NCBI GenBank assembly: GCA_016125185.1
Contig: WGMG01000007.1
Span: 62,001 to 126,000, forward strand
DNA from: Armatimonadota bacterium
Lineage (GTDB): Bacteria > Armatimonadota > Fimbriimonadia > Fimbriimonadales > Fimbriimonadaceae
Direction: 5' to 3'
Length of the DNA: 64,000 nt
The notes under the pieces were generated by a model. It saw nothing but the letters and a program-made list of their open reading frames with translations. It had not been told where the DNA came from and searched no databases. Shown piece after piece: positions 51,879 to 60,295 of this stretch. How positions within the stretch are numbered: the first letter of the stretch is position 1; each line of letters begins with the position of its first letter. The position numbers and the translations under genes are program-made.

Positions 51879-52216
51879 TCACTGCGTGGTATTCCCTGAT
51901 ATTGACCAGCCAAAAGGTCCCTCTCCAGATTATCCGTAGGAAATCTGGAGGGTCCGCAGTTGGAACTGCCACAAAGGCAGTTTCAACGTGGATGGGTGTC
52001 TCCTGACTTGTCAGGAGACGGGAGGGGAAAATCCGCGTCACAATGCGAACAAATGAGGTCAACGAACTTGGAAGGTGGGCATCTTGCCCACCAAGTAAAG
52101 TCGTGGCACTGCTAAAGACGCCTGCTTGTCCGCCGAAGTCCTATGGACGAGGACGGAGGAGGGCGAAGCTGGGATTTACGGGTGTAGCCGAGCATAGTGA
52201 AGCTAACCAGCTACCC
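51879..52216. repeat. Intergenic palindrome cluster and dispersed repeat
   Basis: No gene is seen in 338 bases. It contains four inverted repeats: CTCCAGATT/AATCTGGAG near 51925-51950, AACTGCC/GGCAGTT at 51964-51982, a perfect 10-bp arm GTCTCCTGAC/GTCAGGAGAC with loop TT at 51998-52019, and GGTGGGCA/TGCCCACC with loop TCT at 52074-52092. The part from 52103 on, including GCGAAGCTGGGATTTAC (52163-52179), recurs at about 60132-60200. Confidence 0.8.
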
Positions 52217-52750
52217 TCAAATCATCGCGCCCAGCTTCAAAACCGTATTCCAATTCCGACCCGTCACTGATACCCCAAGCTCCCGCTCGATGATCTTGAT
52301 CGTCAATTTCGACTCCCCAATCCCGTCTGGATACACGAAATAGTAATCGCAACCCGAACTCTGAAAGTACTCACGTCCCTTGATCCGCGCCCGCAGTGAA
52401 TCCTCCTGCTCGGGCGTCGCCGTCCCGCCGCCAAACAAAACCAGCAAGTGGCTCGGATCATCCGCCGCCTCGCGTCGGAACGGATTCCCCGCGATGATCG
52501 CCGACAACTCGTCCGCTGTCCGGACGAAGAACTCCGTGCTCAACCCAAGCCGCTTCTCACACTCGTCGCGCAGAAAGACCTCGGTCTCACGCGGCGACCG
52601 ACTCCCGCCATCAAAAACGAGATTCCCCGTCTGCAACAGTGTCTTGGCTTCGCCGTACCCCAGGTCCGTCATCCACTGCCGAAGGTCGGCCATCCCGATC
52701 TTCCGGGTTCCCGAAACGTTGATGGCGCGAAGAAACGCGAAATACGTCAC
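52217..52750 (-). CDS. DUF1697 family protein
   Basis: A 177-residue protein of the DUF1697 family: FAFLRAINVSGTRKIGMADL, LLQTGNLVFDGGS, and at the end KIIERELGVSVTGRNWNTVL. The start is GTG at 52748-52750. TATGCT (52757-52762, minus strand) lies six bases before it, the same spacing as in xylB. No function is established for the family. Confidence 0.87.
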   Translation of the reverse strand: MTYFAFLRAINVSGTRKIGMADLRQWMTDLGYGEAKTLLQTGNLVFDGGSRSPRETEVFLRDECEKRLGLSTEFFVRTADELSAIIAGNPFRREAADDPSHLLVLFGGGTATPEQEDSLRARIKGREYFQSSGCDYYFVYPDGIGESKLTIKIIERELGVSVTGRNWNTVLKLGAMI

Positions 52751-52768
52751 CCGCCCAGCATATCTCGT

Positions 52769-53302
52769 TCAGCGTCCGACGAAGATGCTATCCGCATGGC
52801 GCTTCATGTCACGAATGCGCACCAACTCTCGTCGCAAGGCCGCCTCGCCCTTGTTCATCGCCCAGTGGTGATTGGCCGAAAATACCGGCTTCAACAACCA
52901 AGACAACCGCCGGATGAACGGTTTTTCTGCCCGGATCCGCCAGTCATAAACGACCTCCACTTCGTCACCGTCTTGAATGAACGTCCACTCGCCGGTGCCC
53001 ACAAAATCACCCGTGGCCACCAACGAAAAGCCACTTGGACGCGCTGCATGCGTGACTCGGAACTGCCACTTCAAGGTGTAAGGAAGCCAGCCCTTGGTGT
53101 GGAGCGCGATCACCCGCCCCAACCCGTCCTCATCGCCTGGCTGAACCTCTTCGACCTTCAGGTAAACCTCTGACCACCAGCGCGGCAAGCCCAGCGGGTC
53201 GCCCAGAATCTCATAAATCTCTTCGCGCGTGGCTTCAAAGCGCCAGCGGGTCACGAAGTGGTAGTCGTTGCTGGCTGTCGTCTCGATCGGTGTTGAAATC
53301 AT
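52769..53302 (-). CDS. SRPBCC (START-like) family protein
   Basis: A 177-residue polyketide-cyclase/dehydrase-like protein. VTRWRFEATREEIYEILGD and LPRWWSEVYLKVEEV at the start, and VVYDWRIRAEKPFIRRLSW in the middle, fit the Bet v 1-like fold that binds hydrophobic ligands. GGAG five bases before the ATG (minus strand) supports the start. Ligand unknown. Confidence 0.8.
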   Translation of the reverse strand: MISTPIETTASNDYHFVTRWRFEATREEIYEILGDPLGLPRWWSEVYLKVEEVQPGDEDGLGRVIALHTKGWLPYTLKWQFRVTHAARPSGFSLVATGDFVGTGEWTFIQDGDEVEVVYDWRIRAEKPFIRRLSWLLKPVFSANHHWAMNKGEAALRRELVRIRDMKRHADSIFVGR

Positions 53303-53368
53303 CTTGACTCCATTGCACCTACCGACCCTAAATCGCCCGTGAACTAAGCCTGAATAGAAGATGAATTC

Positions 53369-54526
53369 CTAAGGAAGCGGGTCGCCCGGCCCCGGATGCC
53401 GCGGGTCAAACACCGCAACCCCGACCCGCGAGTCCGCACAGCCGTAGTACAAGTACCACTTATCCCGGAAGAACGTAAGCCCTTCGACGAACACCGTTCC
53501 CGCTACATACTGGCCACTCTTCTCAAACGGCTCCATCGGCCTCAAAAACGGAACGTCCAAGCGCCCCAATGGCTTGGTCGGATCATCTTTCGAAAACAGA
53601 ACTTGACCGGCGCAGTAAGCATTCGGGGTGAATCGCGGGTCCCGATTGTCGCCGCCATCGTTCTTCCCGTTATACAGAAGCACGATGCCATCCTTGGTCA
53701 AAACCGCAGGCGGTCCGCACTCCGTCAGCGAACTATCGAAGAACCCCTTCCGAGTCTTGATAAGCTCCCTCAGTTTTCCGTCCGCCGTGCGAAGCGGCGT
53801 CCAATCGACTAGATTTTTCGAAGTCGCCGCAAACACGGCCGACTCACCCCAATACATCCAATACTTTCCTCCGATCTTGGCCACGGTTTGTCGGCCATGG
53901 CTGACGTGCGTCACGATCGAACCAGACTTGTAGAAGGGCAGGTCGATGCCGTCGCGCTCAAAAATCGGCCCATGCTTCATCCAGTGCGTCAAATCCTTCG
54001 AGGTGGCCACCGCCAATCGGGCGTTCTTCCGGTTCCACTGCGTATAGAGCATCACGTACGTGCCGTCGTCGGTCACGCACACCCGCGGGTCTTCACAACC
54101 GCCGGGCCACTCGTTAGCCTTCTGCCCGTCCTCGTCGGGATAGAAAACTGGCTTATCGCGGCGTTCAAAATGAACCCCATCACGGCTCGACGCATAGCCG
54201 AGGCGCGAAGTCCGGGTTCCAATCTTCACACCCGTCTTATCCTCGGACCGGTACAAGACCACGATCTGACCTTTGTAAACGGTCGCCCCAGGATTGAACG
54301 TATCGTTGGATTCCCAGGCAATGTCGCTCTTCGTCATCGGATCGAAAAACCGCGCGCTTTCGTCCGGGCTGATGATTGGATTAATGCCAATCGGGCGCAC
54401 GAATCCGCCCAAAGCCCAGTGAGGTAGCGGGTTCAAATGAGGATTTTGAGCGGGAATCAACCCAATAGCCGCAAGGATTAGCATGGCAATAGTCCCTACC
54501 AAAACTACCCGAACCCACTCCGCCAT
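53369..54526 (-). CDS. Exported GH130/GH43-like beta-propeller glycosidase
   Basis: A 385-residue protein with a hydrophobic N-terminal anchor (about 6-24) and then five-bladed propeller features: NPGATVYKGQIVVLYRSEDK, YASSRDGVHFER, GGCEDPRVCV (as in GH130 phosphorylases and hydrolases) and LLYNGKNDGGDN. A GH130-type acid or binding Asp sits within the EDPR box. The start is the ATG at 54524-54526. It is divergent from the lipoprotein gene 20 bases away, so promoters overlap. Confidence 0.8.
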   Translation of the reverse strand: MAEWVRVVLVGTIAMLILAAIGLIPAQNPHLNPLPHWALGGFVRPIGINPIISPDESARFFDPMTKSDIAWESNDTFNPGATVYKGQIVVLYRSEDKTGVKIGTRTSRLGYASSRDGVHFERRDKPVFYPDEDGQKANEWPGGCEDPRVCVTDDGTYVMLYTQWNRKNARLAVATSKDLTHWMKHGPIFERDGIDLPFYKSGSIVTHVSHGRQTVAKIGGKYWMYWGESAVFAATSKNLVDWTPLRTADGKLRELIKTRKGFFDSSLTECGPPAVLTKDGIVLLYNGKNDGGDNRDPRFTPNAYCAGQVLFSKDDPTKPLGRLDVPFLRPMEPFEKSGQYVAGTVFVEGLTFFRDKWYLYYGCADSRVGVAVFDPRHPGPGDPLP

Positions 54527-54545
54527 ATACTGGAATTGGGTTCAA

Positions 54546-55502
54546 TTGAGGAACTTGGCGATCGTCTCCACCCTGGTTTTCTGTCTCGTCGCCTGCGGCG
54601 GTGGAGGTGGGAGTGTTGTCGGTGGATCAACCGGCTCCACCGACCCTAACGGTGACCTTCAGGGACGCCGTATCTTTCCCGTTGACGACCCGTGGAACAC
54701 CCGGATCGACATCGAGCCGGTCGATCCCAACAGCGCAAATCTGATCGCCTCTATTGGCCTCACTGGAAGCCTCCACCCCGATTTCGGTGCGAACTGGAAT
54801 GGCGGCCCATTCGGAATCCCGTACGTCATCGTCGAGGGCACCCAAAAGAAGGTCAACGTCGCATTCGATTACGCCGATGAAAGCGACCCCGGTCCCTATC
54901 CGATCCCGTCCGATGCTCCCATCGAAGGGGGAGCCAGCTCCAGCGGCGACCGCCACGTCCTGGTCATCGACAAGGATAACTGGATTCTCTACGAACTTTA
55001 CGCCGCCTACCCCCAGAGGGACGGCACCTGGACCGCTGGCAGCGGAGCCATTTTCGATATGACCAACGGCACCACCCGCCCGGCTGGCTGGACCTCCGCC
55101 GATGCCGCGGGTCTGCCCATTCTGCCTGGCCTTGTGCGCTTCGACGAAGTCTCCAAGGGAGCCATCAACCATGCGCTCCGATTCACCGTCGCTCAAACCC
55201 GCCATGCCTACGTCGCCCCAGCCCGGCACTATGCCAGCTCATCCACCGACCCCAATCGCCCGCCGATGGGCATGCGCGTTCGCCTCAAAGCAAGCTTCGA
55301 TCTTTCCGGCTACCCGGACTCCGCACAAGTCATCCTCACGGCGCTCAAGAAATACGGCATGTTCGTCGCCGACAATGGCAGTAACTGGTATGTCTCCGGC
55401 GCACCCGACGCCCGCTGGAACGACGACGAACTGAATACCCTCAAGCAAGTCAAAGGCTCCGATTTCGAAGTCGTTCAGATGGGTCCAATTACGACTAACT
55501 AG
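54546..55502 (+). CDS. Putative lipoprotein of unknown function
   Basis: About 318 residues from a TTG at 54546 (MRNLAIVSTLVFCLVACGGGG), which gives a compact lipoprotein signal with the lipobox LVAC; the frame is open to 54483 but would overlap the divergent gene. After a Gly/Ser-rich linker the mature protein has RRIFPVDDPWNTRIDIEPV and, later, DRHVLVIDKDNWILYELYAA. A single compact beta-rich domain is likely. I do not recognise the family. The start is uncertain. Confidence 0.65.
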   Translation: MRNLAIVSTLVFCLVACGGGGGSVVGGSTGSTDPNGDLQGRRIFPVDDPWNTRIDIEPVDPNSANLIASIGLTGSLHPDFGANWNGGPFGIPYVIVEGTQKKVNVAFDYADESDPGPYPIPSDAPIEGGASSSGDRHVLVIDKDNWILYELYAAYPQRDGTWTAGSGAIFDMTNGTTRPAGWTSADAAGLPILPGLVRFDEVSKGAINHALRFTVAQTRHAYVAPARHYASSSTDPNRPPMGMRVRLKASFDLSGYPDSAQVILTALKKYGMFVADNGSNWYVSGAPDARWNDDELNTLKQVKGSDFEVVQMGPITTN

Positions 55503-55823
55503 AAGCTATCTGGGAATTGGTCTAACTATTTACCCGCGGATAAGCGTTGCTCCTGATCCACTTCGTTCCGGTGCTGAGCGGCGTCTAGCCGCGCGGTATC
55601 TGTCTCCCCTTCTGCGCCCAAGGACTCTCCGGTCCGAAGCCGAATCTCGCCCACCAGGTTCCGGGCATCGAAGGTCCAACTTACGTTAGGTGCTAATCCA
55701 CGATGCCCCTTGGAGAAGGAGGGTCCACAACATTCCTGCCACGAAGGCAGGAATGTTGAGGAAGGTGAGCAAAGCGAACCGGGGGATAGATGGCAGCCTT
55801 ATGTACGGTCCAGTCACGACCAA
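55503..55823. repeat. Intergenic region with perfect 13-bp palindrome
   Basis: No convincing gene in 321 bases. CAACATTCCTGCC (55728-55740) pairs perfectly with GGCAGGAATGTTG (55746-55758) across ACGAA. The preceding GGAGGGTCCACA (55718-55729) resembles GGAGGGTCCGCA near 51945, and the stem core TGCC-AC-AAGGCA matches the one at 51968, so both are likely copies of one dispersed element. Confidence 0.75.
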
Positions 55824-56477
55824 CTAACCCAAAAAGTGGGCGCACAGATCAGCGAACGAGGCAAATCGATAGTCTGGCGAAGTGCACGTGCCGAAGCCAT
55901 ACTCCACAAACCCGTACGGCACGCCGCATTGCCGCGCCGCTGTCTCGTCGCCCTCGGCATCCCCGATCATCATCGGCGAGGTCAAATCGTTCCGCGCCAT
56001 CAGGTCGCGTAGATTGTCTCCTTTTGGATTCCCCGTGTTACCCCAGCACTCGATGTCCGAGAACAGCTCTTCCAATTCGTTCAGCCGCAGAAACGTCTCG
56101 ATGTAGCCCGATTGACAGTTGCTCACAATGAATAGCGGATACCGCTCCCGCAATCGAAACAGACCGTCTCGCACGCCTGGATACAGCACCCCGCCAACTT
56201 CGGCGATGACCCGATTGTCCTCGACCATCGTCGCGTCCGAGATGCGCTGAATCTGCTCTTCGCTAAGGTCCGTAAAGGTTCGGCGAATGCACTCCTCGTG
56301 CGGACGGCCCGTCACCACCCGGACATCCTCCGCAATGATCGTTCGGTACGGAATCCCCTCGGCCCGCAAGACGTTGTTCCAGGCGATGGCGCAGGGTTCG
56401 CAGGTGTCCCAAAGGGTTCCATCGAGGTCAAAAACGATGGAGTCGTGGCTCACAGGGGCAAAGCGTACCCTTGTCAT
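55824..56477 (-). CDS. HAD-superfamily hydrolase
   Basis: A 217-residue phosphatase from the ATG at 56475-56477 (MTRVRFAPVSHDSIVFDLDG); the frame extends upstream but the fold starts here. HAD motifs: DLDGT (17-21), FIVSNCQSGY, KGDNLRDLMA and MIGDAEGDETAARQCGVPYG. It resembles phosphoglycolate/haloacid-type HADs (Gph-like) and probably removes phosphate from a small metabolite. The residues after GDAEGDE are typical of motif IV. Confidence 0.87.
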   Translation of the reverse strand: MTRVRFAPVSHDSIVFDLDGTLWDTCEPCAIAWNNVLRAEGIPYRTIIAEDVRVVTGRPHEECIRRTFTDLSEEQIQRISDATMVEDNRVIAEVGGVLYPGVRDGLFRLRERYPLFIVSNCQSGYIETFLRLNELEELFSDIECWGNTGNPKGDNLRDLMARNDLTSPMMIGDAEGDETAARQCGVPYGFVEYGFGTCTSPDYRFASFADLCAHFLG

Positions 56478-56675
56478 GAATAGTAAGAAAAAGGTAAGAA
56501 AGTCTTTGGGCTCCAAATCGCGATGGATCGTTGGTCCCCCTCGAACCCAAGCGATCCCCTCCAAAAGACGACAAATTAGGCTCAAAACTAACCCGTTAAT
56601 GAAGGTCGGATGAAGTTCATAGGTACTTCGAAGGACCGCAGGTCGTTAACTGAACCTTTACATATATACTTCGTT

Positions 56676-56882
56676 ATGCCAACAATGATTTTTGATCACT
56701 TAAACAGCTATGTCCATGTGGCGCCAATCGCCTACCTCGACGGAGGGTCGGGCAGCCTCATTTTCCAGATGCTCATAGCCGCCAGTGTCACGGTTGGATA
56801 CGCCATCAAAACCCAATGGCAAAACCTCGTAGCGGCCGTTTCGCGGCTGCGACATCGAGGCTCAAATCCTTCCGATCAATGA
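56676..56882 (+). CDS. Small conserved membrane protein
   Basis: A 68-residue protein from the ATG at 56676. It has the pattern AYLDGGSGSLIFQMLIAASV, a member of the small family whose hallmark is Y-(I/L)-D-x-G-(S/T)-G-S-(L/I)-(I/L), plus one membrane helix and a basic tail. Such proteins often precede methyltransferase or sulfatase-like genes of envelope clusters, as here. TATACT at 56665-56670 lies five bases before the ATG, so the mRNA is probably leaderless and it starts the operon. Its stop overlaps the next ATG (ATGA). Confidence 0.72.
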   Translation: MPTMIFDHLNSYVHVAPIAYLDGGSGSLIFQMLIAASVTVGYAIKTQWQNLVAAVSRLRHRGSNPSDQ

Positions 56883-58261
56883 CGGAAGCCGTTCGCTCGG
56901 CATCATCCTTCCGCGACCCTAGCGGGTTTGTTTTCCAAAGGGATGGTGTCCTGTATCGTCAGATCAATCAGTCCGCCGCAGCGGACTTTGAACTCCTTGT
57001 TTCGTCCGGCCTGCAAAACGAGCTGACCGACGCAGGTCTCGTGGTCGCCGTAGAAGAAGCCGACCTCAGTCTGGCGGTCACGCCTGAAGCGGCAAAGGTC
57101 ATCCGCCCTGCCCGCATTCCCTTCGTCTCCTATCCCTACGAGTGGTCATTCAGCCAGTTAAAGGACGCTGCTCTCCTCACCCTCGAGGTCATGCGCCGTG
57201 CACTCGGCAAAGGCATGTCCCTCAAGGACGCCAGCGCCTATAACGTCCAGTTCGTTGGGACGCGGCCGGTCCTTATCGACACCCTCTCGTTCGAGCCGTA
57301 TGTCGAAGGTGAACCTTGGGTGGCCTATAAGCAGTTCTGCCAACATTTTCTCGCCCCACTGGCTCTGATGTCCCACGTCGATATCCGACTCGGAAGCCTC
57401 CTGCAGACGAACATCGACGGAATCCCGCTCGACCTCGCTTCAAACCTTCTCCCCGGCAAAACCAAATTTCAGCCTGGCCTGCTGACTCATATCCATCTGC
57501 ACGCCAAGGCTCAATCTCACGATGGCGGCGGAAAAACGTCTGACCGCAAGCCAACTATTTCGAAGACTAGCTTGCTCGCCCTGGTGGACAACCTCAAAGG
57601 CACGGTTTCTGGTCTCACTTGGAAGCCCGCTGGCACCGAATGGGCCGACTATTACGCCAACACCAACTATTCCAAAGAGAGCCTGTCTCGCAAGGCCGAA
57701 CTCGTCGCGTCGTTCTTGGCCAAAGTCCCCGGCGATGCCCAAACCTGCTGGGACCTCGGCGCCAATAACGGAGAATTCAGCCGCCTCGCCGCCGCCCGAA
57801 GCCTATACACCATCGCCTGGGATATCGATCCCGCCGCCGTCGAACAGGCATACCTCGCCTGCAAATCCAGTAAAGCCGATCATCTGCTTCCGCTTCTCCA
57901 AGACCTCCGCAACCCCTCGACCGATCTCGGTTGGGCCGGAGCCGAGCGTGATTCGCTCCAGTCCCGTGGCCCCGCCGACGTCGTCCTCGCTCTCGCCCTG
58001 GTCCACCATCTCGCCATCGGCAATAACGTCCCCCTCGATCGCCTCGCCGATTTCTTCGCCCAGGTCGGTCGTTGGCTGATCGTTGAGTTCGTCCCCAAAG
58101 AAGACTCCCAGGTCCAGCGGATGCTCGTCGCCCGCAAATACATCTTTACAAGCTACGACCTTTCCGGTTTCGAACAAGCCTTCCAGCGCCGATTCGAAAC
58201 GGTCGAAAAACAAGAAATCGAGGGCACTTGCCGCACCCTCTTCCTTATGCGAAGGATCTGA
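56879..58261 (+). CDS. Class I SAM-dependent methyltransferase (NoeA-like)
   Basis: A 460-residue methyltransferase from the ATG at 56879. The SAM motif is CWDLGANNGEFSRLAA, followed by IAWDIDPAAVEQAY, then DVVLALALVHHLAIG. The long N-terminal part (PFVSYPYEWSFSQLKDAALL, KDASAYNVQFVGTRPVLIDT) matches the NoeA/nodulation-protein type often found with surface glycan genes. It methylates a sugar or lipid by context. It overlaps the preceding small protein by four bases and lies two bases before the sulfatase-like gene. Confidence 0.87.
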   Translation: MTEAVRSASSFRDPSGFVFQRDGVLYRQINQSAAADFELLVSSGLQNELTDAGLVVAVEEADLSLAVTPEAAKVIRPARIPFVSYPYEWSFSQLKDAALLTLEVMRRALGKGMSLKDASAYNVQFVGTRPVLIDTLSFEPYVEGEPWVAYKQFCQHFLAPLALMSHVDIRLGSLLQTNIDGIPLDLASNLLPGKTKFQPGLLTHIHLHAKAQSHDGGGKTSDRKPTISKTSLLALVDNLKGTVSGLTWKPAGTEWADYYANTNYSKESLSRKAELVASFLAKVPGDAQTCWDLGANNGEFSRLAAARSLYTIAWDIDPAAVEQAYLACKSSKADHLLPLLQDLRNPSTDLGWAGAERDSLQSRGPADVVLALALVHHLAIGNNVPLDRLADFFAQVGRWLIVEFVPKEDSQVQRMLVARKYIFTSYDLSGFEQAFQRRFETVEKQEIEGTCRTLFLMRRI

Positions 58262-58263
58262 CA

Positions 58264-59871
58264 ATGGACGAAAACCCGGTGGTCGAGGCCAAGAAGCCCA
58301 GCGGCAAGGGCCGCATTTTCTACCCGGTCCTCTTCGCCATCTTTCCCGTCCTGTCCATCTATTCCGCCAACCTCTCACTCGTCCCCTTCGGCATGATCAT
58401 CCGGCCCGTCGTCGCGGTCGCCATCGCCGCCTTCCTGGTTTGGGGTCTTCTGAGCCTCATCTTGCGGCGGTTGGATCGGGGAGCCGCCGCAACCGCCGCC
58501 TTGACCCTGATGCTCCTCACCTTCGTCGGATTCAACCGACTTCTGTACCGAATCGACATTCCCCAAGACATCCGCCCCAACGTCTGGCTCGGCACCACCA
58601 TTGTCGTCGTGCTCGTATCCGCGTTCGTCTGGCGATGGCACAAGCTCCTCAATATCGTCTCTGCATCGCTGGTTCTCGCCGCCATGGGGCAAATCGCCTT
58701 CGGTCTCGTCCAAGCCGCCACTTTTTCGCCGCCAAAAACAACCAACTCGACCCCGATCACACTCCCCAAAGAACGGCCAGACATCATCTACATCATCCTC
58801 GACGGCTACGGCCGGTCCGACGCCCTCAAGCGCGCGATGGGCTTCAACAACGACGCCTTCATCCAAGGGCTCGAATCGCGCGGGTTTTACGTCGCCAAAG
58901 ACGCCCACTCCAACTACTGCCAAACCGAGTTGTCCGTCTCGTCTTCCCTCAACTTTGACCTCCTGCAGAGTCTGCTCCCCAATCTCAACGACGAAGACAA
59001 CGACCGCTCACCCCTCGGCGAACTCATTGACCACAATGCCGCCGCCGACTACCTGCACAAACGCGGCTACGTCTTTGCCGCCATCACCAGTAAGTTCCCG
59101 CCGATCCAGCTGGACGACGCCGACATCAACATGAAAACGCGCACGGGTTACACGCTGATCGAGTCCGCCCTGCTCCAAATGACGCCGTTCACGTTGTTCC
59201 AGGGCAACCTAACGTCGCTATTCGACCAGCGTCGCGCGACGATGCGGAATGAGTTCGAAGCCCTCGAATCGCTGGCGTCCACCAGCGCCAAGCCTCGCTT
59301 TGTCGTCATGCATGTCCTCGCCCCCCATCCGCCCTTCGTATTCGATAAGGACGGCAATCCGACGCGCCGCGAGGGGCCGTTCGGCTACTGGGACGGAAGC
59401 GATTTCATCGATCACGTCGGCACGCCCGAGGACTACCGCCAAGGCTATATGGGCCAAGCCGAATACGTCGGTAAGCGTCTACTCAAGTCGCTCGATGTCC
59501 TCTTTGCTAAACCCGGCCTCAAACCCGTCGTCATCGTCCAGGGCGATCACGGCTCCAAACTCCGCTTAGACCAGAACTCCTACGAACACACCGACGTTGA
59601 CGAGTGCTTCCCCAACCTCAACGCCTACTTCGTCCCCGACGCGGTCCGCAAGAACCTCTATCCTGGCATCACGCCGGTCAACTCGTTCCGCATCCTTTTC
59701 AACGGCCTCTTCGGCGATAACCTGCCCCTCCGCCCCGACCGAAGCTGGTACTCCACCTATCCCAAACCGTACGACTTCATCGAAGTCACCAACCGCCTGT
59801 CCAACCACGAGAAGATGCCAACCGTACCCTTGCCGAAGTTTCCACCGCGCCCTCCGGCCGGCGATGACTGA
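58264..59871 (+). CDS. Membrane sulfatase-like (alkaline phosphatase fold) protein
   Basis: A 535-residue protein from the ATG at 58264. About five hydrophobic segments occupy residues 20-160, and an extracytoplasmic catalytic domain follows. The metal motif DIIYIILDGYGRSDAL (about 180-195) and GDHGSKL near 430 are the sulfatase/phosphoethanolamine-transferase superfamily core. HVLAPHPPFVFD fits LtaS/EptA-like proteins. A phosphoryl or sulfate transfer to a surface lipid or glycan is likely. It ends the three-gene operon starting at 56676. Confidence 0.85.
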   Translation: MDENPVVEAKKPSGKGRIFYPVLFAIFPVLSIYSANLSLVPFGMIIRPVVAVAIAAFLVWGLLSLILRRLDRGAAATAALTLMLLTFVGFNRLLYRIDIPQDIRPNVWLGTTIVVVLVSAFVWRWHKLLNIVSASLVLAAMGQIAFGLVQAATFSPPKTTNSTPITLPKERPDIIYIILDGYGRSDALKRAMGFNNDAFIQGLESRGFYVAKDAHSNYCQTELSVSSSLNFDLLQSLLPNLNDEDNDRSPLGELIDHNAAADYLHKRGYVFAAITSKFPPIQLDDADINMKTRTGYTLIESALLQMTPFTLFQGNLTSLFDQRRATMRNEFEALESLASTSAKPRFVVMHVLAPHPPFVFDKDGNPTRREGPFGYWDGSDFIDHVGTPEDYRQGYMGQAEYVGKRLLKSLDVLFAKPGLKPVVIVQGDHGSKLRLDQNSYEHTDVDECFPNLNAYFVPDAVRKNLYPGITPVNSFRILFNGLFGDNLPLRPDRSWYSTYPKPYDFIEVTNRLSNHEKMPTVPLPKFPPRPPAGDD

Positions 59872-59894
59872 TGGGTACAATCAAATTCCGTTTC

Positions 59895-59945
59895 GGGCTG
59901 TTAGCTGAGTGGCAGAGCATCCCGATCCATCGGGAGGGTCGTCGA
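59895..59945 (+). pseudogene. Degenerate tRNA half next to tRNA-Val
   Basis: GGGCTGT-TA-GCTG-AGTGGCA-GAGC-A (59895-59919) matches the acceptor/D half of tRNA-Val (22 of 25 identical), and GGGTCGT (59936-59942) matches its variable-to-T-arm junction. The anticodon arm has a 5-bp stem (TCCCG/CGGGA) but only a six-base loop, the D stem has one mismatch, and the T arm and 3' acceptor strand are missing. It reads as a broken tRNA gene. Confidence 0.7.
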
Positions 59946-59969
59946 TCTTCCTGGTATCCTAGTTCGCAG

Positions 59970-60044
59970 GGGCGGTTAGCTCAGTGGTAGAGCACTTCGT
60001 TCACACCGAAGGGGTCGTAGGTTCAAGTCCTATACCGCCCACCA
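59970..60044 (+). tRNA. tRNA-Val (CAC anticodon)
   Basis: A 72-base cloverleaf plus an encoded CCA. Acceptor GGGCGGT/ACCGCCC, D stem GCTC/GAGC, anticodon stem CTTCG/CGAAG with loop TTCACAC (anticodon CAC, codon GUG), T stem GTAGG/CCTAT with loop TTCAAGT, discriminator A. All stems pair, apart from one G-T at the T stem. It reads valine GTG codons. Confidence 0.96.
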
Positions 60045-60295
60045 TTTTCCATTAGAGCATTTGGGGGCACAGGCGTCTCGCCTGTGGAAAGAGGCTGATG
60101 CCTTCTCCGAGAATTCATATAAGCAATGGTAGTGGCAAAGACGTCTGCGAAGCTGGGATTTACCAGTAATAGTCACATGTGAATAGTTGAGCCAGTTAGC
60201 ACTTAATTATTCAAGATTCACATCGTTTGCCCTTTCGCCTGTATCCAACGGACGTATACACTGCTATCGAGTGAAAGCAGAGTTGGCGGTGCCAA
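60045..60295. repeat. Intergenic region with palindrome and a dispersed repeat copy
   Basis: CACAGGCG (60068-60075) and CGCCTGTG (60079-60086) form a perfect 8-bp arm with loop TCT, the same loop as the palindrome at 52074-52092. GTGGCAAAGACG...GCGAAGCTGGGATTTAC (60132-60163) is a shortened copy of 52103-52179, with about 45 middle bases missing. No gene is seen before 60296. Confidence 0.75.

Follow-up and report, generated by a model that had tools for sequence, protein, structure and literature searches.

Repetitive extragenic palindromes (REPs) and the REP-associated tyrosine transposases (RAYTs) were described as short multicopy intergenic palindromes with a transposase gene between two inverted copies, several RAYT/REP pairs per genome, hybrid clusters and complementary stem changes; the RAYTs meeting the criteria of that study came only from gammaproteobacteria, and the palindromes carried GT(A/G)G heads (PMC2817692; what is said here of the cited papers holds for the parts of their text that we drew on). 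In vitro, the TnpA_REP enzymes of E. coli, Stenotrophomonas and Marinomonas read the foot and the loop or bulge specifically, and the stem matters mainly as a paired stem (PMC8266576). Other Y1 transposase genes, those of the TIRYT group and the TIRtrons, have inverted-repeat flanks that are not of the GTAG type, and REPs inserted in other palindromes were reported with them (PMC3733652). The IS200/IS605 insertion sequences (IS608, ISDra2) have Y1 chemistry, hairpins with a 5' guide and an orientation that follows replication (PMC6006769, PMC5371812). The window studied here, a stretch of 64,000 nucleotides (G000:C7:62001-126000), comes from the 4.52-Mb, 13-contig genome G000 of an Armatimonadota genus, and three of its intergenic regions hold hairpin elements of at least four families (A, B, C and D). 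We regard A, B and C as very probably mobile REP-type hairpins with RAYT partners, and D as a probable REP-type member without a partner. Compared with the described REP/RAYT systems, these elements lie in an Armatimonadota genus, have mostly non-canonical feet, show a larger drift of the stems and are polar with respect to replication. Reading of foot and loop would be expected here from likeness to the TnpA_REP enzymes, and inspection of A-D by eye, short of a systematic comparison, did not show the GGGGWSAS motif of the TIRtrons.

The first-pass annotation had taken the three regions for copies of one REP-like or MITE-like family (MITE, miniature inverted-repeat transposable element). The REP-like character is borne out by copies throughout the genome, by RAYT/Y1 genes with the same palindromes as flanks, and by presence or absence at orthologous gaps. 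The single family was ruled out, because no feature is common to all three regions, each being confined to two of them; instead, at least four hairpin families (A-D) and composite frames are present (Table 1). Thus the palindromes with loop TCT are real at 52074-52092 and 60068-60086, the box GGAGGGTCC(A/G)CA is present at 51947 and 55718, and the 17-mer GCGAAGCTGGGATTTAC is identical at 52163-52179 and 60147-60163, but each of them occurs in two regions of the three. The palindrome with 13-base arms at 55.7 kb was confirmed. As for the internal deletion of about 45 bases, the length difference between the two A copies is real and amounts to 39 bases, but the short form cannot simply be taken for a decayed copy, because RAYT genes of sister genomes have short forms next to them, one of these genes being flanked by a long form on one side and a short one on the opposite side. 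In the three gaps there are 3, 1 and 1 perfect hairpins with arms of at least 8 bases, where an order-1 Markov model gives means of 0.028, 0.016 and 0.012, and the D, B, C, H1 and H3 hairpins, folded as single-stranded DNA, are better than all 200 shuffles. The apices of several modules (GCGAAGC, GCAAAGC) often carry the heptamer GCGAAGC, which forms an unusually stable DNA mini-hairpin; such apices would suit a single-stranded DNA substrate.

Table 1. Positions of the repeat elements and their surroundings in the window.
Feature	Position	Strand	Description
First gap	51879-52216		composite frame (H1-D-H3), B, long A
Composite frame Fam3	51919..52036	+	CCCTCTCC - H1 (51923-51950) - D - H3 (51998-52019) - GGGAGGGGAAAATCCGC
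D element, copy 1	51947..51992	+	foot GGAGGG, variable stem, conserved apex TGCCACAAAGGCA; 67.3 bits (covariance model)
B element	52069..52092	+	TGGAAGGTGGGCATCTTGCCCACC; family of the inverted pair around the RAYT gene at G000:C6:730.7 kb
A element, long form	52103..52184	+	foot GTGGC; outer stem degenerate; additional inner hairpin of 39 bases; apex GAAGCTGGGA; holds the 17-mer
Second gap	55503-55823		second composite frame with another D at 55705-55789
Composite frame Fam1	55705..55789	+	...GAACCGGGGGATAG; carries a D element
D element, copy 2	55718..55762	+	stem very unlike copy 1, but 13 bases paired; 58.4 bits
Third region, tRNA-Val gene	59970-60044		followed by C and short A
C element	60063..60086	+	GGGGGCACAGGCGTCTCGCCTGTG; family of the inverted pair around the RAYT gene at G000:C2:400.3 kb
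A element, short form	60130..60168	+	without the inner 39-base hairpin; holds the 17-mer

The proposed search for more copies in the genome was positive for all four families, and the reversed control sequences gave none. The A 17-mer has 12 exact copies in the own genome; its 18-base extension is absent from 60 relatives, among which 19 belong to the same genus, and a 20-mer of A had no match in a contig scan of the other genomes. When up to 2 mismatches are allowed, the own genome has 40 copies of B, against 13 in the closest relative (G002), 4 in G009 and none in 17 other genomes of the genus; C numbers 14 in the own genome and 15 in G009, and 18 others lack it. Exact cores of D number 40 in the own genome, where the covariance model finds at least 58 copies; it finds 23 in G009, 14 in G002, 4 in G018, and 1 each in G015 and G001, with none in 14 others. 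The figure of 58 is a lower bound, because 150 of the 1043 first-look candidates of the own genome were scored. D occurs within three different composite frames (Fam1-Fam3). The matches of nine modules are intergenic in 98 of 100 cases, compared with 19.9% of random positions (458-kb sample), as judged with a home-made gene caller by which some genes are missed, e.g. 53369-54526. Closely spaced inverted pairs of the kind seen in REPINs (REP doublets forming hairpins) and BIMEs (bacterial interspersed mosaic elements) are absent from the window, where every element has the + orientation, and the copies covered elsewhere form long same-orientation stretches. Two B copies, at C5:37281 and 37569 of the own genome, lie 288 bases apart in identical near surroundings and are probably a tandem duplication.

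The transposase genes that had been suggested as a check were also found. The Y1_Tnp domain (PF01797) has 13 matches in the own genome and is present in 49 of 61 genomes; the Y1 loci examined, also 49, comprise 13 of 13 in the own genome, 18 of 22 in G002 and 18 of 26 in G009. Around 11 of the 13 own genes (the exceptions being L056 and L063), the inverted flanks score above those of all 321 control genes, with 260 bases searched around Y1 genes and 200 around controls. The B palindrome forms the inverted pair C6:730373(+)/731050(-) around one RAYT gene (open frame of 202 amino acids), and the C palindrome forms the pair C2:399834(+)/400583(-) around another (open frame of 197 amino acids), whose downstream copy is identical to the C element of the window. 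A-type elements, with foot GTGGC and apex CTGCGAAGCTG, flank the RAYT genes L175 and L189 in G009 and L149, L152 and L156 in G002, and these A-flanked genes form one group with 51-60% identity. The NCBIfam RAYT model NF047646 (cut-off 80) is passed by the C partner (88.7), L175 (84.9) and L067 (84.2), the last being the own-genome member of A's group, and missed by the B partner by about one bit (78.9) and by the F partner by 14 (66.2).

Several other Y1 loci carry repeats of their own. A number of planctomycete RAYT genes of A's group (L194-L214) have inverted GGGTGGC-footed hairpins as flanks, with differing stems, which may belong to an abundant planctomycete repeat class. The IS200-like Y1 genes of about 150 amino acids (L056-L062 in G000; L158-L173 in G002 and G009) have multi-hairpin flanks, GACCTC..GAGGTCGCA and TTAGCCCAGC..GCTGGGTA, and some of these multi-hairpin repeats are dispersed families themselves. 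One Y1 gene, L062 (G000:C6:792184-792501), is interrupted by an in-frame TAA.

The in vitro results on the three TnpA_REP enzymes (PMC8266576) predict a constant foot and apex with drifting stems, and this is the pattern observed. In D, the apex TGCCACAAAGGCA (or its G variant, according to the search pattern) and the foot are constant, and the 8 apex-adjacent pairs vary freely yet pair. Taken without filtering, the 40 copies of the own genome have 6.42 of 8 Watson-Crick pairs, compared with 3.47 after arm swaps (0 of 5000 swaps reach the observed value), and nine non-redundant copies have 6.78 compared with 2.95. In the 28-row alignment of D, 12 of 17 pairs have changed on both sides, and the covariation score is 0.571 compared with 0.145 after shuffling (0 of 500), versions slid against each other giving at most 0.233. 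These 28 rows belong to a 46-row set in which 10 rows come from relatives and were chosen for paired arms; the unfiltered test of 40 copies is independent of that selection, and the relatives' listing beside it includes, in error, two own loci, L262 and L268. For A, 24 rows have 8.08 of 9 pairs compared with 5.08 after arm swaps (0 of 5000), and 11 non-redundant rows have 7.45 compared with 4.52 (0 of 5000). Likewise, additional copies of the Fam3 frame have other H1 and H3 stems, yet paired ones. Since complementary changes in REP stems were already remarked in 2010 (PMC2817692), paired stem change is not new; its extent here is large.

The direction of the elements, taken as foot first, follows replication. 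Along contig C6 (2 Mb), negative GC skew extends to about 237 kb, interrupted by a single 15-kb segment of positive skew at 100 kb; between 300 and about 1115 kb the skew is positive, apart from one segment of -0.010, and from 1200 kb it is negative again. The element direction switches with the skew. Because neighbouring copies are not independent, the 124 A-D matches were collapsed into 83 clusters (excluding four RAYT-flanking copies), 67 of them scorable. In 55 of these 67 the foot lies on the C-rich strand and in 12 on the G-rich one; on C6 it is on the C-rich strand in 22 of 22 clusters, and in 49 of 54 when contigs C3 and C5 are left aside. The same polarity is found in G002 (17 of 21 scored; D alone 13 of 14), where the input was 14 of 14 D and 8 of 13 B matches with 1 unscored for weak skew, and, more weakly, in G009 (12 of 16 scored), where it was 19 of 23 D and 6 of 15 C matches with 9 unscored for the same reason. 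Base composition as the source of the strand bias was ruled out by counting the G-rich 7-mers of the elements outside the elements: four lean the opposite way (11:29, 23:40, 11:27 and 10:28) and three are balanced (22:17, 101:95 and 47:52). The skew is replicative rather than genic, because third-codon skew shifts by region within each gene orientation and coding direction is independent of skew (correlation 0.02). The genes of rplB and of the small-subunit (SSU) rRNA both lie on the G-rich strand, as is usual where the leading strand is G-rich; since the feet are on the C-rich strand, the footed strand is not the lagging-strand template. A literature search, with subscription papers mostly outside its coverage, found no report of REP replication polarity and none on REPs or RAYTs of Armatimonadota or Fimbriimonas.

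The comparison of orthologous gaps, which covered the first and second gaps, shows sites without the elements. The closest relative, G002, has the same two neighbours at the first gap (an aminotransferase 80% identical, and the next gene, which is inverted), with no D, A or frame between them and two B-like palindromes instead. At the second gap, both convergent neighbours are kept in G009, with only about 40 bases between them compared with 321 here. Insertion polymorphism had been proposed as a check among strains; the presence and absence seen here are between species.

The best reading of the results above is that repeated insertions have stacked and nested several non-autonomous REP-type hairpins in the gaps, namely A, B, C and D, the last being a REP-like orphan. 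Every family has a purine-rich 5' foot, a stem that only needs to pair (as A and D show) and a conserved apex of its own. A small Y1/HUH nuclease of the matching group, the RAYT, would read foot and apex on single-stranded DNA, and would cut, rejoin and move copies while replication exposes single strands. Movement of this kind would leave the copies in one orientation relative to the fork; D may use the same machinery.

Several observations weigh against this reading. No movement was seen directly, and it is inferred here. The two A copies of the window, both with a mismatched outer stem, fold no better than shuffles (z -0.49 and 0.13), and A is without a partner in its own genome, because the own RAYT of A's group, L067 (C6:143 kb), adjoins a different repeat with foot GGGTGGCA. 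The feet of B, C and D are GGGAG, GGGGG and GGAGG, not the canonical GT[AG]G, whereas most of the 24 A rows have a GTGG-type foot; if GT[AG]G is strictly required, A alone qualifies as a REP, though the whole works like a REP/RAYT system. Orientation is mixed on contigs C3 and C5 (4:6 on C5). These contigs (L046-L051) are very repeat-dense, unlike the remaining genome, and are perhaps a plastic region or another replicon. Two points concern D: its core is absent from all 49 Y1 loci examined, by which D as the REP of one of these genes was rejected, and none of the 13 own Y1 genes has a D copy within 40 kb. It is therefore a real possibility, though the lesser one, that D with its Fam1-Fam3 frames is not a REP and instead forms a structured mobile element apart, with an enzyme that is lost or not known; its occurrence inside three different frames fits this as well, but its anatomy and replication polarity are the same as those of A-C.

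The polarity itself is also opposite to the simple expectation from IS608-type elements, which insert into and leave from the lagging-strand template with the transposed strand (PMC6006769, PMC5371812); here the footed strand is the other strand. Either the complement of the footed strand is active, or wrong-way copies are lost, or spread uses a different strand. Loss instead of oriented insertion, with slippage or a nuclease deleting hairpins whose footed strand lies in the lagging-strand template, is possible but somewhat unlikely as the source of the polarity. The surviving orientation does keep the footed strand out of that template, and the footed strand of D copy 1 folds somewhat better than its complement (-11.9 vs -9.5 kcal/mol). 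However, the stem of B is perfect on both strands, yet its bias is among the strongest (30 of 33 scored), so hairpin stability alone does not predict loss.

Returning to REP-type DNA elements as the preferred reading, two further explanations fare much worse. Strong covariation including wobble pairs, together with the intergenic position, would suit RNA elements (terminators or structured RNAs) under selection at the level of the transcript, whose G-U pairs and covariation would be like those of a non-coding RNA; but there is no clear preference for the strand of the neighbouring gene (same:opposite 7:3 for D, 2:2 for A and 2:3 for Fam1), elements also lie in divergent gaps, orientation tracks replication instead, orthologous gaps lack the elements, and Rfam matches nothing in the window besides a tRNA. 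Terminators are rejected on the gene-orientation evidence, and RNA elements as a whole are very unlikely. Classic MITEs of DDE transposases, with terminal inverted repeats CACTGGTAAA...TTTACCAGTG and target duplications, would fit the near-perfect ends of A and its size of 40-80 bases, but are scarcely credible and remain unsupported, given that the same repeats flank Y1 transposase genes, the stems drift yet remain paired, and no target duplication was noticed, no systematic search having been made. Integron attC sites were also considered as a candidate, on account of the hairpins.

Just before the tRNA-Val gene, the stretch 59895-59941 resembles the 5' half of a tRNA (GTTAGCTGAGTGGCAGAGCATC...) and is perhaps a tRNA fragment; neither ARAGORN nor Rfam calls it.

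The elements are thus of a known kind, in a lineage for which we found no report, and they are distinguished by the drift of their stems and above all by their replication polarity. Tentatively, and on balance doubtfully, D and its relatives may represent a class of replication-polar, structure-defined DNA hairpins, in which foot, apex and pairing are kept, the stem letters drift and the footed strand is opposite to the lagging-strand template. If true, this class would imply spread (or survival) at the fork unlike that of IS608, of which we found no description for REPs. Two proposals become testable, namely the recognition of foot and apex, but not of the stem letters, by RAYTs, and a coupling of REP spread to the replication fork. 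The reversed polarity is a specific clue to which strand is the substrate.

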